The notes: generated by a model not told the origin, from the letters alone. Shown: positions 17,409 through 24,575, numbered from the stretch's first letter. The stretch: 35,877 bases of DNA from Candidatus Bathyarchaeota archaeon (GCA_013388895.1 JACAEK010000001.1:1-35877); one strand, 5' to 3'. Program-made: numbers and translations.

Positions 17409-18470
17409 ATGGCAGATTTACCGCTTAAGAGAAAAGTAGAACCTATCGAAATAAAAGAGAAAAGCGTCGCTCAGCTTTTGGGCGAAATGGCAAAAACAGC
17501 TTATCAAGGAAGAAAACTGGGCGAGGCAGTGGAAGTTTGGGAACAAATGCTGAAAGAAAGAGACTTGACAATTATCATGGGATTAGCCGGATCAATGAGC
17601 ACTGCTGGACAATGGACAATTGTTAACTGGCTCATCCAAAACCATTTCATCGACGTTCTGGTTTCAACAGGCGCAAACGTCTCCGAAGATATTGTAGACG
17701 CCATGGGATTCGGATATTGGCAAGGTTCCCCATATGTTAACGACGCAGAACTCGTGAAAGCTGACATTAACAGATACTACGACGTTTACGGACGAGAATC
17801 TGATTACCGAAAAATGGAAGAACTCATGACCGAATTCATGCTGACTTTGAAGACTGATTTTACTTATTCTTCCATGGAACTTCTCTGCTTATTTGGCAAA
17901 TGGCTCAACCAAAAAGGAATAAAAAGCATAGCTGCAGTAGCCGCAGAAAACAACGTTCCAATCTTTTGCCCAGCAATATCAGACAGCGCCTACGGCGAAG
18001 CCTTCTTAATGGCAAAAAACCAAGGACACAACATCCAATTAGACCAAGTGAAAGAATTCAACCAGTTCGTGGGCATAGGCGAAAAAACCAAAGACGTAAG
18101 TGTCATCTACATAGGCGGCGGTGTGCCAAAAGACTTCACTCAACTCATAGCCATATCTGTATCGCCAAAAACAATGGACCAAGGCGTGCCAGGAAGAGAA
18201 GGCTTCCTCCGCCAAAGCGTAAAAGAATACTATTATCCACACAAATACGCAATCCAAATCACGACTGATTCGCCTCAGTGGGGTGGGCTTTCAGGCTGCA
18301 CTTTGGAAGAGGCTGTAAGCTGGGGGAAAATCCTTAGTGAAGGGAAAAGAGTCACATGCTACTGCGACGCAACAATAGCCTTACCACTAATAGTGCATGC
18401 GCTTAACGAGAGAGTGAAATTCAAGAGGACAGCACCTGACCTAACATGGCTTTTCAGAGAAATCCACTAA
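17409..18470 (+). CDS. deoxyhypusine synthase-like paralogue with altered active site
   Basis: The 353-residue protein has the deoxyhypusine synthase fold: LAGSMSTAGQWTIVNWL corresponds to the SFTANL..TG NAD-binding loop, and LEEAVSWGKILSEGKRVTCY holds the catalytic Lys of SWGK. However, the canonical GGG-x-x-KHH segment is GGGVPKDFTQL here, so the His pair that acts on spermidine is lost, and DGSxSGA is QWGGLSGCT. These changes are typical of the bacterial and archaeal 'DHS-like' branch, whose members have been linked to homospermidine-type or agmatine chemistry. It overlaps the last 4 bases of the convergent canonical copy at 18467-19402. It probably acts in polyamine metabolism, not on aIF5A, but this is inference. 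Confidence 0.85.
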   Translation: MADLPLKRKVEPIEIKEKSVAQLLGEMAKTAYQGRKLGEAVEVWEQMLKERDLTIIMGLAGSMSTAGQWTIVNWLIQNHFIDVLVSTGANVSEDIVDAMGFGYWQGSPYVNDAELVKADINRYYDVYGRESDYRKMEELMTEFMLTLKTDFTYSSMELLCLFGKWLNQKGIKSIAAVAAENNVPIFCPAISDSAYGEAFLMAKNQGHNIQLDQVKEFNQFVGIGEKTKDVSVIYIGGGVPKDFTQLIAISVSPKTMDQGVPGREGFLRQSVKEYYYPHKYAIQITTDSPQWGGLSGCTLEEAVSWGKILSEGKRVTCYCDATIALPLIVHALNERVKFKRTAPDLTWLFREIH

Positions 18471-19402
18471 ATCTTATTTAATCGAGTTATGAGCGAGCTA
18501 ACCATTATTGGAAGAATCAACGAAGCGTCGCCTTCAATCATGATGCGGTCTGCCTTAACGTTTATTTTGCCCCATGAAACCGCTTCGCGTGGTCTTGCAC
18601 CAGACAAGCTACCATCCCACTCATCAGCTGTGCTGACATAAACAGCGTAGTCTAATCCTTCTCTGAACTGGTTCCACCAAAGCGTATGATGCTTTGAAAT
18701 GCCACCGCCAACTAATAAGGCGCCAGCCTTCTTCGCATCATATACAATATCATTTAATTCGCCCGAATCCTTCAGCAAATCAACCTTGAAATCGTGGTCT
18801 TGCGAAAAAAGCCATAGCTGATATCCAACGGCGCCGTCTGTAATGCCAGGCACGTAAATGGGTATATTGTTTTTTGCCGCCCAGTAGAGAATGGAGGTTT
18901 CATTGCATATCTGCTCTCCTATTTCATGACACAGTTTACGCGTTGTGATTTCTCTGACGCCTTCCTTCCATAAACTTTGAAGTAACTTTTGCATTTTCTC
19001 CTCAATTATCATACCATAGCTTTCGTTTGGAACCAAAACGTTTCCCAGACGATTCACTTCTTTTTCACGAAGTCTAGCGTCGCTCATCAAAAACGAGCCT
19101 CTGTAATAGTTTTTCCAGCATCTGGCAATATCATGGTCCAGTGTTCCACAAGTGGTAATTACGACATCAACAAGTTTCCGTTTTACAAGCTCTTTTAAAA
19201 CGCCTCGGGTTCCAGTAGCCACTAGGTTTCCAGTGAAAGAAAGAAACTTTGTGCATTTTTTCTCTTTAATCATTTCTTCTAGGATTTTTACTCCTGAAGC
19301 CAGTTTGCCTGCAGTAAAGCCCCAAGCCTTTTCCATCTGCAAAACAAGCTCATTAACCGACATTTCACTGGGCAAATCATAATCTTCAACAGCAATCCTC
19401 AT
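18467..19402 (-). CDS. dys: deoxyhypusine synthase
   Basis: Transfers the aminobutyl group of spermidine (or an archaeal substitute) to a lysine of translation factor aIF5A, using NAD. The 311 residues match archaeal DHS. Diagnostic motifs are FLSFTGNLVATGTRGVLKEL, VVITTCGTLDHDIARCW, GGGISKHHTLWWNQFREGLD (catalytic His), the STADEWDGSLSGARPREA loop and SWGKI with the Lys that forms the enzyme intermediate. Compared with the paralogue at 17409-18470, every active-site feature is kept, so this copy is the likely true aIF5A modifier. The aIF5A gene itself is not in the window. The ATG start is upstream of a clear family N terminus. Confidence 0.94.
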   Translation of the reverse strand: MRIAVEDYDLPSEMSVNELVLQMEKAWGFTAGKLASGVKILEEMIKEKKCTKFLSFTGNLVATGTRGVLKELVKRKLVDVVITTCGTLDHDIARCWKNYYRGSFLMSDARLREKEVNRLGNVLVPNESYGMIIEEKMQKLLQSLWKEGVREITTRKLCHEIGEQICNETSILYWAAKNNIPIYVPGITDGAVGYQLWLFSQDHDFKVDLLKDSGELNDIVYDAKKAGALLVGGGISKHHTLWWNQFREGLDYAVYVSTADEWDGSLSGARPREAVSWGKINVKADRIMIEGDASLILPIMVSSLITRLNKI

Positions 19403-19523: not shown

Positions 19524-20309
19524 ATGAAGATTGGAGCACAATATCCAACTGTTGAACATGAGCAAGCTGCAAAAGCTATTGTAGAGTTTTTCTCCTCACT
19601 TCCAGACGTAGAAGCAGTGATTCTTGTGGGGTCATGCGCACGTGGAAAAGCTAGCCCTGATAGTTGCCTTGATATTACCATTCTCGTGTCTCCAGAAACA
19701 CCCGCAGTTAAGAGAACGCTACTAGAACAAAAATGGGACGACTTTTATGAAAAAACAAATATCTTCAAAACATTGCAGAAAGTGGGAAAATACTCCCATG
19801 TTGACTTGAGTTTTATTGACGGATGCTTCACACCGAAGCCGCGTGGTTGGACCTCTGGACCAGACGAGTTTGAATTAGAAATAGGCAATGCACTCGTATA
19901 TGCAGTGCTTTTGTGGGAACATAGCGACTACCTTAGACGCCTCAAAAGTAAATGGTTGCCATATTATGACGAAACTCTACGACGCGAAAGACTGGATATG
20001 GTAAGACTTTATTGCATTAATAATCTAGACCATGTTCCTCTGTATGTGAATCGAAGCTTATATTTTCAAGCTTTTGACCGATTATACAATGCTTTCCAAG
20101 AATTTCTTCAGGCGCTTTTCATTTCTAGGCGCGTTTACCCCATTGCTTATCACAAGTGGATTCGAGAACAAATTGAGGAAAATTTGGGCATGCCTGAACT
20201 TTACAAGCAATTGCCGAAACTATTTGAGATTAGGAATTTTGAAAGCAGACAAATAGCAGAGAAAGCGAAACACCTGCGTAACCTTTTCGAAAATTACATT
20301 AAAGAATAA
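19524..20309 (+). CDS. nucleotidyltransferase-like protein with a helical C-terminal domain (first metal Asp replaced)
   Basis: The N-terminal third has the Pol-beta nucleotidyltransferase signature AVILVGSCARGKASPDSCLD, but where the family has S-D-x-D this protein has S-C-L-D, so the first of the paired metal ligands appears to be Cys. A later Asp (HVDLSFID) is kept. The C-terminal half is helical with QAFDRLYNAFQEFLQALFIS and VYPIAYHKWIREQIEENLG, as in kanamycin-nucleotidyltransferase-like or DUF4037-like proteins. It may be a catalytically weakened or substrate-sensing member. It is 261 residues with an ATG start. It converges on the interrupted ATP-grasp gene with 20 bases between the final stops and is probably unrelated to that cluster. 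Confidence 0.72.
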   Translation: MKIGAQYPTVEHEQAAKAIVEFFSSLPDVEAVILVGSCARGKASPDSCLDITILVSPETPAVKRTLLEQKWDDFYEKTNIFKTLQKVGKYSHVDLSFIDGCFTPKPRGWTSGPDEFELEIGNALVYAVLLWEHSDYLRRLKSKWLPYYDETLRRERLDMVRLYCINNLDHVPLYVNRSLYFQAFDRLYNAFQEFLQALFISRRVYPIAYHKWIREQIEENLGMPELYKQLPKLFEIRNFESRQIAEKAKHLRNLFENYIKE

Positions 20310-20329: not shown

Positions 20330-21208
20330 TTAGTCAACTAGGTAAGCTATTATTTTGCGGTATAAATCCCAATCTCTAAGATCTTCCTGTCCGGCGTAAA
20401 TGCTTGGATTATCATTCACTTCCACCACAACATAGTCGCCGTTAACCTCTTTTAAGTCCACTCCATAAAGCCCATGCCCAACCACTTGGCACGCTTTTAA
20501 CGCTGTTTCTTTCAGTTTTGTCGGCGCATTTTCTCTTTTAAGCGATATTGTTCTTCACCAGACAAAGCTAGGTTTGCCTCTTCGTTTGGCACCATGTTTC
20601 CATCTGCCCTTAGGCACCATATACTTACAAACGTACAACACTTCGCCATTTAAGACCCCGACCCTCCAGTCGAAGGCTGTAGGCATAAACTCCTGCACTG
20701 CTAAGACATCAGATTTTCTGAAGAATTTTTTGGTAACCTCTCGAAAACTTGTTTCGCATGCCACTTTTTCCACATATCGTGAGAAGCTAGTGTAAGGCGC
20801 CTTAACGACAACTGGTCTTCCAAACGTGCGGAAAATACTCATTATCTTTTTGTGGTGCAGTTCATCTTTATTGAGGAAAATTGTGGGAATGGTGGGAACA
20901 TTATGTTTCTGAAAAAGCGAATACAAATGAATCTTGTTTCCGCAAATTTGTATCGATTTCGGGTCGTCAACTACTTTTAAGCCCATTTCCCATGCTGTTT
21001 TAGAAACTATGTAGGCCGTGAAAAGCGGGTCTGTGGTTGCTCTGATGAAAAGAGCATCATGCTTCGAGATTTCTTGTAGATTATCTCTAAACATGAAATT
21101 GAATGTGTGACCTCTTTTTTCCGCTGTTGTTTTAAAGTTTTGGAGAGCCCTAGCTTCTTTCGGGTCTGTAAAATTATACTTTTCAACGAAGCAGGCTACA
21201 CTAGCCAA
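20330..21208 (-). pseudogene. RimK-like ATP-grasp ligase interrupted by an in-frame TGA (20555-20557)
   Basis: Starting at TTG 21208 (GGTGA 8 bases upstream), 217 residues run to a TGA. The same frame then continues for 74 codons to a TAA at 20330-20332. The first part holds the ATP-grasp pre-domain and ATP-binding strands (RPVVVKAPYTSFSRYVEKVA, VLAVQEFMPTAFDWRVGVLN). The part beyond the TGA holds the rest of the catalytic fold, including GLYGVDLKEVNGDYVVVEVN followed by 'DNPSIYAGQED', which supplies the Glu/Asn that binds magnesium. Translation ending at the TGA would therefore lack the metal site. Either the gene is freshly broken (GGA to TGA is one change), or the TGA is read through, or the base is an assembly error. 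It overlaps the RLAN-like gene by 8 bases, implying translational coupling. Confidence 0.8.
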
Positions 21209-21893
21209 CTAAGAGTTCACCATTCTTGGAAAGTTGAGAAATCTCTTCAGACAGAACCTGCAAATCTCTCGGGCTTAACTCTGCGTTTTCTAAAGGTTGA
21301 AGCCCACATAGATACGCTTTTTCTTTAAGGAGTTGAACGTGCAGCTTGCAGAGTGGAATCTTGAATACGTCATAAACTTTTTTAGAAATTCGCTCCACAT
21401 CCCCTTCTAATTCGCATTTTCCAAAGATAGACTTAAACGAAATAATTTCGCTTTTAAATGGTTGTGCACAAATGTCAAACTTGTAATTCATTCCCAAACT
21501 TTTCATAGCTCTGTAGAGCGCGCTTCTGTTTTTGGCAATCTTGAAGCCGTCGTAAGAAAAGGGGTTGACAGCGAATACGACTACGGGGAAGCCAATTTCA
21601 GAAATTATTTGTTTTACCGAGCTTGTTACTAGATATGGAAAGGTTGGGATTCCGGCTTTTGAGGCTCTAAGGAGCAGAATTGGGGTTCTGTGGGCGTCAA
21701 GTATGTTTTCGCTTTTTGGAATAACTGCATTGTCTAGAATTTCTGCATGTAAAGAAACATAGTAACCAGTTTTGAGATAGCGGTAGTCATTGTTGATGTT
21801 GAGAGTGAAATCTTTAATTGATGATTCAAGAAACTTTGATGGCTTCATTGTAGGCAAGTTTGTTGTTAGGTCGATGTTTGAGACGACCAACAC
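21201..21893 (-). CDS. stand-alone RLAN-like (RimK-like ATP-grasp N-terminal) protein
   Basis: Near residue 30 the product reads FTLNINNDYRYLKTGYYVSL followed by 'HAE'. This matches the hallmark of the RLAN domain, normally fused in front of RimK-like ATP-grasp ligases (compare N-x-Y-x-Y-x-x-x-GYYVSLLAE). The middle (RASKAGIPTFPYLVTSSVKQ, then 'EIGFPVVV') resembles an eroded ATP-grasp nucleotide domain. A longer frame starts at ATG 21956, but that ATG lies on the far side of the TATA-like element at 21938-21946. GTG 21893 has a GGTG about 9 bases upstream and starts directly at the first strand, VLVVSNIDL, so it is preferred (230 residues). It probably works with the overlapping ATP-grasp gene as a split version of the fused enzyme. 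Confidence 0.72.
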   Translation of the reverse strand: MLVVSNIDLTTNLPTMKPSKFLESSIKDFTLNINNDYRYLKTGYYVSLHAEILDNAVIPKSENILDAHRTPILLLRASKAGIPTFPYLVTSSVKQIISEIGFPVVVFAVNPFSYDGFKIAKNRSALYRAMKSLGMNYKFDICAQPFKSEIISFKSIFGKCELEGDVERISKKVYDVFKIPLCKLHVQLLKEKAYLCGLQPLENAELSPRDLQVLSEEISQLSKNGELLVG

Positions 21894-21937
21894 GCATTTG
21901 ACACCAGATATTGAATGGTCGGTATTGTAACAGTCAT

Positions 21938-21946
21938 ATTTAAAAT
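21938..21946. promoter_or_regulatory. shared TATA-like element in the divergent ligase promoter
   Basis: The near-symmetric sequence ATTTAAAAT can be read as a TATA box on both strands. On the minus strand, transcription about 25 bases away would start near 21915, about 22 bases before GTG 21893. On the plus strand it would start near 21968, before the AGAGGAG at 21989-21995 that precedes the GCS2-like gene. This would give coordinated expression of both arms of the cluster. No BRE was confidently seen. Confidence 0.5.
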
Positions 21947-22019
21947 TAACTGACATGCATATTCATATTTCAGAGCCAACACATTCAAAGAGGAGCTGAA
22001 CACGTACAAAACCCTAGAA

Positions 22020-23192
22020 GTGTTAGGTCCAGAACACGAATTTTCATTGGTCAACGAAGAACTGAAAGCCTTACCAATAGTTGATAAAGTAATAAGAGAC
22101 TTCCGTGGACGGATCGTAAATTTCGTAGAGTTATCACATTTTACTTTTGGAAAAGAACTTCAAATGCACGTTTTGGAAATCAAACCCAACGCACCATTCA
22201 GGTCACCAGACATATTTGAAGAAACAATGCAAGATGCCGTCTTGACCTTAACAGATTTTTTAGAACGCAAGTACAAGGCGCAACTTCTCGGAACAGGCAT
22301 GCACCCTCTGCTGATGCTTAAGGAAACGGCTGTGTGGCCTCATCGTCATAAACAAATTTACCAAGCTTACAGCAAAGTCTTCAACCTAAAACGTCACGGT
22401 TGGCTTAACATCCAAAGCTTTCAACTGAATCTTCCTTACTCCGATGAAAAAACAGCCATCTTAATGCATAATCTGCTTGGGGAAATCTGCGCTTATTTGC
22501 CTGCGATTTCTGCTTCTTCCCCCATTTTCGAAGGAAAAATCGGAGATCTTGTCGACAACAGGTTGCGTTTTTACATGCAAAACCAGAAGGAAGTGCCTTC
22601 AATAGTTGGAGATGTAATCCCCGAATATGTTTCATCATTAAAGCAATACAAGCGAGAGATCATCGAGCGATATTCACAGGATTTAGCAAACGTCAGCGTC
22701 GACAAATGTATTCTGTACAGAGATTGGGTTAATTCGCGAGGGGTGATCTTTAGATTTGACAGGAAAGCTCTCGAGATTCGCGTTATGGACGAGCAGGAAT
22801 GCGTCAAATCAGATGTCGCCCTGAGCTGTTTCATAAGGGCATTAATCAGAGGAATGCTCAATGAAGAGCCCCATTTTTTGCCACACGAAATTTTGGTAAA
22901 AGACCTCCATGCAGTTATTGCAGAAGGATTAGATGCAAGAGTCATGCATCCAAAGGGGCAGACCGCCCGCCAAGTGTGTGGACATTTTTGCACAGTTGCT
23001 TGGAAGAACGCAACAGAGGAAGAGAAGAAATATATTCCGATAATAGAAAAAAGAACGAGGCATGGGAGTTTGTCTGATATCATAAAGAAAAAAGTTCAAA
23101 AAAAGGCTCAAAAAACAGACTTCAAAGAATCGATAGTCAGTGTTTACTCAAGCCTTGTAAAGAGTCTTATTAGAAACCAACCATACCTTTGA
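22020..23192 (+). CDS. GCS2-family carboxylate-amine ligase (glutamate-cysteine ligase-like)
   Basis: The fold is that of GCS2 ligases, relatives of glutamine synthetase that use ATP to join an amino acid carboxylate to an amine. Visible family elements are LGPEHEFSLVNEEL (first metal-binding strand), 'GTGMHPLL', WLNIQSFQLNLPYSDEKTAI, 'ISASSPIFEG' and KALEIRVMDEQECVKSDVAL. The open frame continues upstream to a TGA at 21951-21953 with no ATG, GTG or TTG before 22020. Yet the codons before GTG 22020 (YKTLEV) fit the normal first beta strand, and an AGAGGAG lies at 21989-21995. The real start may be a non-standard codon such as ACG 22002 or CTG 21996. It shares its promoter region with the divergent RLAN/ATP-grasp genes and is followed after 20 bases by a Cys-rich protein gene. 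Confidence 0.88.
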   Translation: MLGPEHEFSLVNEELKALPIVDKVIRDFRGRIVNFVELSHFTFGKELQMHVLEIKPNAPFRSPDIFEETMQDAVLTLTDFLERKYKAQLLGTGMHPLLMLKETAVWPHRHKQIYQAYSKVFNLKRHGWLNIQSFQLNLPYSDEKTAILMHNLLGEICAYLPAISASSPIFEGKIGDLVDNRLRFYMQNQKEVPSIVGDVIPEYVSSLKQYKREIIERYSQDLANVSVDKCILYRDWVNSRGVIFRFDRKALEIRVMDEQECVKSDVALSCFIRALIRGMLNEEPHFLPHEILVKDLHAVIAEGLDARVMHPKGQTARQVCGHFCTVAWKNATEEEKKYIPIIEKRTRHGSLSDIIKKKVQKKAQKTDFKESIVSVYSSLVKSLIRNQPYL

Positions 23193-23212
23193 TATGACGG
23201 AGAAAAAATCCT

Positions 23213-23758
23213 ATGTCAACAGAAGACGAGAGGCAGAGCAATTTTTTCAATGTCTGCAAAGATTGTAGAGACAGCTGTTGCCGAAATGCGAGGTCTCCGA
23301 TAAGCAGTAGACGTAAGAAAATAATAGAAGGATATTTGAAGAAGCATCAGATTTTTGTTGAAAAACCGTTTGTCGAGGCACTATACGTTTTTCCTAGGGA
23401 AGATAGCGAAGGATACTGCGTATTCTATAATAAGGCATCAATGAGATGCGTTGTGCATCCAGTAAAACCAGAAACGTGCGTCGCTGGACCGGTAACCTTT
23501 GACATAGACTTGTCTCATCGAAAGATTGGATGGTTTCTTAAGAAGGAGAGAATCTGTTTGCTTGCTGGACTGCTGTACAAGAATAAGAAGAATTTTAAGA
23601 GACATTATGAATCAGCCAGAAGAGAAATACTGACTCTTATACACGAGTTAAACACTGAAGCCCTAAATGCGATATTGAAAATAGAGGAACCAGAAACCTT
23701 CAAAATAGGCGAGAGCAACATCGAAGTTTTTCTTAACAAGAAAATCATGAAAGAATAA
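23213..23758 (+). CDS. YkgJ-like Cys-cluster (putative zinc- or iron-binding) protein
   Basis: The N terminus has CKDCRDSCCRNA, the CxxCxxxCC pattern of the YkgJ/UPF0153 family. A further pair of Cys follows in GYCVFYNKASMRCVVHPVKP and 'ETCVAGP', giving the complete set of proposed metal ligands. The last 60 residues are helical and charged. Family members are thought to hold zinc or an Fe-S centre and have been connected with protein methylation or redox steps in other systems; the exact role is unknown. It begins 20 bases after the GCS2-like gene and is likely in the same operon, which ties it to the ligase cluster. The ATG start has GGAG 11 bases upstream. Confidence 0.78.
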   Translation: MSTEDERQSNFFNVCKDCRDSCCRNARSPISSRRKKIIEGYLKKHQIFVEKPFVEALYVFPREDSEGYCVFYNKASMRCVVHPVKPETCVAGPVTFDIDLSHRKIGWFLKKERICLLAGLLYKNKKNFKRHYESARREILTLIHELNTEALNAILKIEEPETFKIGESNIEVFLNKKIMKE

Positions 23759-24499: not shown

Positions 24500-24575
24500 C
24501 GGGCCCGCTGGGATTTGAACCCAGGATCTCCGGCTCCGCAGGCCGATGTCCTAATCCGTACTAGACTACGGGCCC
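24500..24575 (-). tRNA. tRNA-Arg(GCG), intronless
   Basis: A full cloverleaf of 76 nt: acceptor GGGCCCG/CGGGCCC, D arm GTCT-AGTACGGATTA-GGAC, anticodon stem TCGGC/GCCGG, loop CTGCGGA with anticodon GCG, variable AGATC, T arm CTGGG-TTCAAAT-CCCAG, discriminator G. CCA is not encoded. It shares its D loop, T loop and acceptor stem with the intron-containing tRNA-Arg(CCG) at 12094, showing recent common origin and providing a built-in reference for placing that gene's introns. Confidence 0.97.

Follow-up and report, generated by a model that had tools for sequence, protein, structure and literature searches.

Positions 20,330 to 23,758 of a 35,877-nucleotide stretch of DNA from Candidatus Bathyarchaeota archaeon (GCA_013388895.1, JACAEK010000001.1:1-35877; the window) carry four genes in two divergent arms. 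One arm encodes an RLAN-family protein and a RimK/LysX-type ATP-grasp ligase, the other a GCS2 carboxylate-amine ligase and a YkgJ-like protein with a CxxCxxCC cysteine cluster. The four genes are inherited together with very few exceptions, and we consider it somewhat probable that they form one functional module, which makes a small glutamate-containing amide metabolite of the gamma-glutamyl type. The window is contig C28 of a Bathyarchaeia draft genome of 1.58 Mb (58 contigs, 95.8% complete), whose named relatives are nearly all metagenome-assembled genomes (MAGs) of Candidatus Bathyarchaeota.

Co-inheritance of the four genes

The conservation of the four genes together in relatives had been set beforehand as the test of their linkage, and co-occurrence is near-perfect in the window genome and 60 relatives (61 genomes). 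RLAN is present in 22 of the 61; 21 of these 22 carry GCS2 and 21 an orthologue of the CxxCxxCC protein, while neither orthologue is found in any of the 39 genomes that lack RLAN. Fisher's test, uncorrected for shared ancestry, gives p = 1.8e-15 for this distribution and, when restricted to the family of the window, 1.3e-9. The two misses are draft genomes (G024 and G034) with short module contigs. Among 300 sampled genomes of the phylum, nine have RLAN, eight of them from the window's family and one (G158) from another, and G158 has a divergent four-gene locus as well. In the relative G022, which is 100% complete and lacks the module, the surrounding genes are mostly retained and one block is inverted; gain or loss of the module as a whole would leave such a pattern.

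Beyond Bathyarchaeia, public genomes were scanned and searched further, and the module turned up in Archaeoglobi, in a MAG labelled Asgard and in one additional archaeon. Several Archaeoglobi and the Asgard-labelled MAG have it as a single four-gene operon. The order on one strand is RLAN, ATP-grasp, GCS2, CxxCxxCC at five loci (L102, L105, L150, L151 and L154), and a complete but re-ordered set, with the last two genes swapped, is found in another archaeon (L153, G396). In Archaeoglobi with the ATP-grasp gene, GCS2 lies elsewhere in the genome when it is not adjacent, and none of nine neighbours without the ATP-grasp has GCS2. Since the gene order changes and the set stays constant, these loci are good evidence for a working unit.

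It is very improbable, and already strongly disfavoured, that the four genes are neighbours through shared ancestry alone or represent two unrelated pairs (RLAN with ATP-grasp; GCS2 with CxxCxxCC). Two unrelated pairs would fit the four genomes in which the arms lie apart (G013, G018, G033 and G058), as well as G392 and G401, which have the first pair only. All four genes are nevertheless kept where the arms are separated, the set remains constant while operon order varies among lineages, and genomes that lack one pair also lack the other. The initial annotation had proposed a functionally linked two-ligase pathway, and this proposal is well supported by presence and absence, by the re-ordered complete sets in distant archaea and by the neighbourhood of G022.

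Some genomes carry only part of the set. G350 (1.1 Mb) has GCS2 and no ATP-grasp match. In the 3-Mb genomes G392 and G401 (loci L147 and L148), the RLAN and ATP-grasp genes occur together, at L148 adjoining the gene for ribosomal protein S19e. A Planctomycetota MAG (L107) encodes an ATP-grasp protein of 406 amino acids, which is 43% identical to the archaeal one and has a 106-amino-acid N-terminal extension without RLAN match; no GCS2 was found in this genome.

RLAN is a predicted degenerate ATP-grasp protein

All four family assignments made initially (RLAN, ATP-grasp, GCS2 and YkgJ-like) are borne out by profile searches. RLAN matches PF14401 with 5.7e-18 and 65.5 bits (cut-off 25) and has no credible match to solved structures by sequence. 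An AlphaFold model built from 28 archaeal RLAN proteins (predicted local distance difference test score, pLDDT, 91.0; predicted template modelling score 0.88) was compared with the PDB using Foldseek. The best 50 matches are all ATP-grasp-fold proteins, mostly D-Ala-D-Ala ligases, LysX/ArgX, RimK and PsnB, with DdlB, LysX and ArgX at the top (best E 1.3e-10, probability 1.00, TM 0.65 by query length, root-mean-square deviation 5-6 A). Two Archaeoglobi provide support independent of this model, as their true ATP-grasp proteins align in register with the RLAN profile (2.3e-6 and 2.5e-4). A profile-profile alignment with an E-value of 6.6e-4 and a probability of only 27% places Phe107 of RLAN opposite Lys136 of the ATP-grasp ligase, and the RLAN strands matching the ATP-grasp, judged by eye from strand order, are without metal ligands. 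The prediction for RLAN is a degenerate form of the ATP-grasp fold, lacking the catalytic lysine. RLAN had initially been described as the front part of ATP-grasp ligases, and the model indicates that it is more than that.

Because the RLAN and ATP-grasp genes adjoin, overlap and are fused in bacteria, their products probably form a heterodimer of an active and an inactive ATP-grasp protein. As first described, the arms are divergent and the overlap is 8 bases long, and overlapping stop and start codons are kept in relatives, with lengths of 1, 4, 8, 13, 26 or 32 bases. These lengths stand in different frame relations, which argues for two separate proteins and not for one frameshift product; a programmed frameshift fusing RLAN with ATP-grasp was ruled out because the overlaps occur in two differing frame relations. 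Translation of the two genes is probably coupled. The start of RLAN had to be corrected to the GTG at 21893, the codon at which relatives begin, which shortens the protein from 251 to 230 amino acids. The initial annotation considered a separate RLAN gene unusual, which is true in comparison with the bacterial homologues examined, where it is fused, but in the archaeal loci seen RLAN normally has a gene of its own.

RLAN, a named family without sequence match to solved structures, can now be assigned a fold by prediction and, plausibly, the role of a dead ATP-grasp partner. If this is correct, the bacterial RLAN-ATP-grasp fusions would be tandem inactive/active ATP-grasp enzymes, which hints at how they may work.

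The ATP-grasp gene and its in-frame TGA

The initial coordinates of the locus were right and did not mention that the ATP-grasp gene is interrupted by an in-frame TGA. The open reading frame ends there after 217 amino acids, and the truncated product scores below the Pfam cut-offs for this reason. Read through the TGA, it reaches 37.5 bits and passes the PF08443 (RimK) cut-off, and the frame runs on to 20330 with the D and E-x-N metal motif (GVDLKE, VVVEVNDNPS). The invariant metal-binding residues of the ATP-grasp are D251, E263 and N265.

In profile searches, the intact 291-amino-acid copy of a same-genus genome matches rimK_fam (1.3e-20), LysX (3e-18) and MptN (4e-17). The rimK_fam match lies below the subfamily cut-off, and the equivalog cut-offs of LysX (65.9 of 275.6 bits), MptN (62.3 of 350) and CofF (27.6 of 300) are not reached either. 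Judged by sequence, the intact copy is a RimK/LysX-type ATP-grasp that falls short of every curated cut-off. The solved structure closest to the ATP-grasp by sequence is ArgX (3vpb).

The TGA replaces a glycine within VWGRT that is present in all aligned relatives and encoded by GGA in the same-genus genome. Recoding of TGA as a family trait was ruled out, because no aligned relative has a TGA at this position. Relative to the same-genus copy, 7 of the 72 codons after the TGA and 23 of the 217 before it are nonsynonymous; divergence is no greater behind the TGA, which points to a mutation of very recent date or to an error in the assembly. A recent pseudogenisation, which would leave the module dead in the window genome, is possible but not probable and would concern this copy alone, not the module. 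The position of the TGA ahead of the ENDNP metal motif and its absence from every aligned relative would agree with it. The gene nevertheless shows no other damage, RLAN, GCS2 and CxxCxxCC are intact in the window, and a single wrong base could occur in a 58-contig draft.

The GCS2 and CxxCxxCC proteins

GCS2 matches PF04107 with 5.4e-32 and passes the Pfam cut-off, and it remains below all NCBIfam equivalog cut-offs. In a fold search with its predicted model (pLDDT 77), YbdK (2.9e-9) and plant glutamate-cysteine ligase (1.5e-8) are nearest, whereas Dop and PafA match much more weakly (4e-4 and weaker). GCS2 is therefore predicted, from this model, to be a YbdK-like carboxylate-amine ligase with a glutamate-cysteine-ligase-like fold.

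The CxxCxxCC protein matches PF03692 with 2.8e-8 and 34.8 bits (cut-off 23) and has no match among solved structures by sequence. Its CxxCxxCC motif is conserved; two sequences differ in C-C spacing and one diverges at its N-terminus. The aligned sequences have no conserved C-terminal tail.

Proposed function

The most likely course, by analogy with GshA and GshB, is that GCS2 makes a first gamma-glutamyl amide and ATP-grasp/RLAN a second amide. In the first step, GCS2 would couple an amine to the gamma-carboxyl group of glutamate or a similar acid. In the second, the RimK/LysX-type ATP-grasp would form an amide bond via an acyl-phosphate, and RLAN, as its catalytically dead paralogue, would pair with it and aid substrate binding or shape the active site. 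The cysteine-cluster protein may bind an iron-sulfur cluster or a metal, and it would act on the product or in concert with it. We infer the order of these steps, their substrates and the role of the metal protein.

Some observations weigh against this proposal. G392 and G401 have no GCS2 match, so that the RLAN and ATP-grasp pair can occur without GCS2 and may have a role apart from it. A tblastn search of a plasmid collection returned 11 homologues, and most of the plasmid-borne bacterial fusions examined are without adjoining GCS2: it is absent next to the P. aeruginosa plasmid copy and was not seen beside three other plasmid loci. Finally, the window's own ATP-grasp gene carries a stop codon.

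The module might instead modify a protein, with ATP-grasp and GCS2 adding glutamates or a tag to a side chain or C-terminus and the cysteine-cluster protein as possible target or carrier; we regard this as unlikely. Cases to compare are RimK, which modifies ribosomal protein S6, LysX, which acts on LysW, and PafA and Dop, which act with Pup. The nearest solved ATP-grasp relatives by sequence include ArgX, which acts on the LysW carrier protein, LysX and ArgX are also returned by the RLAN fold search, GCS2 has some resemblance to Dop and PafA, and the cysteine-cluster protein accompanies the ligases in nearly all genomes. Against this stand the closer resemblance of the GCS2 model to YbdK and glutamate-cysteine ligase and the missing C-terminal tail of the cysteine-cluster protein, since both LysW and Pup have a conserved one.

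A small gamma-glutamyl amide remains our preferred product. Gamma-glutamylcysteine is among the known archaeal thiols, being found in halobacteria (PMC7278568), which makes a glutamyl thiol plausible. More tentatively, and with considerable doubt, a new gamma-glutamyl thiol or metal-binding peptide of low molecular weight might be made in archaea by GCS2 and the active/dead ATP-grasp heterodimer, and a cysteine-cluster protein with zinc or an iron-sulfur cluster would load or modify it. Low-molecular-weight thiols and peptide-like metabolites are poorly mapped in most archaea. With four small genes, in one operon in several Archaeoglobi, the module offers a compact and testable set for an amide metabolite that can now be sought.

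Locus layout and neighbouring genes

Table 1. Features of the four-gene locus, in window coordinates
Feature	Position	Strand	Remarks
RimK/LysX-type ATP-grasp ligase gene	20330..21208	-	TTG start 21208, stop 20330-20332; interrupted by in-frame TGA; 292 amino acids in relatives
In-frame TGA in the ATP-grasp gene, singleton	20555..20557	-	Gly of VWGRT in relatives; mutation or assembly error
RLAN gene, 230 amino acids from conserved GTG start	21201..21893	-	Open reading frame extends to 21956; predicted degenerate ATP-grasp fold without catalytic Lys
Overlap of RLAN stop and ATP-grasp start, 8 bases	21201..21208	-	
Divergent intergenic stretch between the two arms, 126 bases	21894..22019	no strand	From gene coordinates
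GCS2 carboxylate-amine ligase, 390 amino acids	22020..23192	+	Predicted YbdK / plant glutamate-cysteine ligase fold
CxxCxxCC (YkgJ-like) protein, 181 amino acids	23213..23758	+	Eight conserved cysteines: 15, 18, 22, 23, 69, 79, 89, 115

Two convergent deoxyhypusine synthase (DHS) paralogues of 353 and 311 amino acids (17409-19402) adjoin the module in the window. One clade of Bathyarchaeia has the DHS pair next to the module, and L102, L105 and L085 have single DHS genes at a distance of no more than a few kb. The pair also sits together in six genomes without the module (G002, G017, G022, G025, G027 and G029), and a functional link was therefore set aside as housekeeping synteny. Between DHS and the module lies a gene with a nucleotidyltransferase fold (19524-20309), which matches the MntA antitoxin family weakly and has no counterpart in the neighbourhoods compared. 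A tRNA-Arg (24500-24575, anticodon gcg, ARAGORN) is located near the module on its other side.

In a second clade (L051, L052, L053, L054, L055 and L058), the neighbours of the module are redox-flavoured and include an ODP/FprA-like flavodoxin fusion, hemerythrin/DUF438, a low-molecular-weight phosphatase, DUF166 and a thioredoxin-like protein. A link to these redox genes was not used, because they are confined to that clade.

Comparison with known systems

Glutathione synthesis likewise relies on one ATP-dependent amide ligase from each of the two superfamilies, a GCS2-type GshA, such as the plant glutamate-cysteine ligase that the GCS2 model resembles, and the ATP-grasp GshB. In contrast to this pathway, the ATP-grasp of the module is nearest to RimK, LysX and MptN and not to GshB, and the module adds the RLAN and cysteine-cluster proteins. 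The LysX/ArgX systems, which use the LysW carrier, are similar in that ArgX is the nearest solved ATP-grasp relative, but the module's ATP-grasp is far under the LysX equivalog cut-off and no LysW-like partner is present in the module. The cysteine-cluster protein shares its Pfam family, PF03692, with the YkgJ/CxxCxxCC proteins. FliB has a similar cysteine motif and binds a [4Fe-4S] cluster (PMC8598068); the likeness rests on the motif and does not imply methyl transfer.

Among the papers searched, none was found to describe the module. A 2009 survey of amidoligases by Iyer and colleagues reportedly predicted this type of ligase pairing.

The closest bacterial counterpart was seen in Legionella adelaidensis (NZ_LR134436.1), where a fused RLAN-ATP-grasp gene (annotated 'RimK family protein', PF14401 and PF08443) is followed by GCS2 and then by N-formylglutamate amidohydrolase. 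Matched against the archaeal GCS2 profile, the Legionella GCS2 aligns along its entire length (4.9e-87), so that homologous RLAN, ATP-grasp and full-length GCS2 lie side by side in both. N-formylglutamate amidohydrolase is not adjacent to the module in the window; the search for it did not extend to the remainder of the archaeal genome. Whereas RLAN and ATP-grasp are fused in Legionella and the other bacterial homologues examined, they are encoded by separate, overlapping genes in archaea, and the further partner is a hydrolase in Legionella and the CxxCxxCC protein in archaea. We regard the archaeal form as a variant of this poorly known bacterial ligase pair, new in being split and in having an eight-cysteine CxxCxxCC protein where Legionella has the hydrolase.

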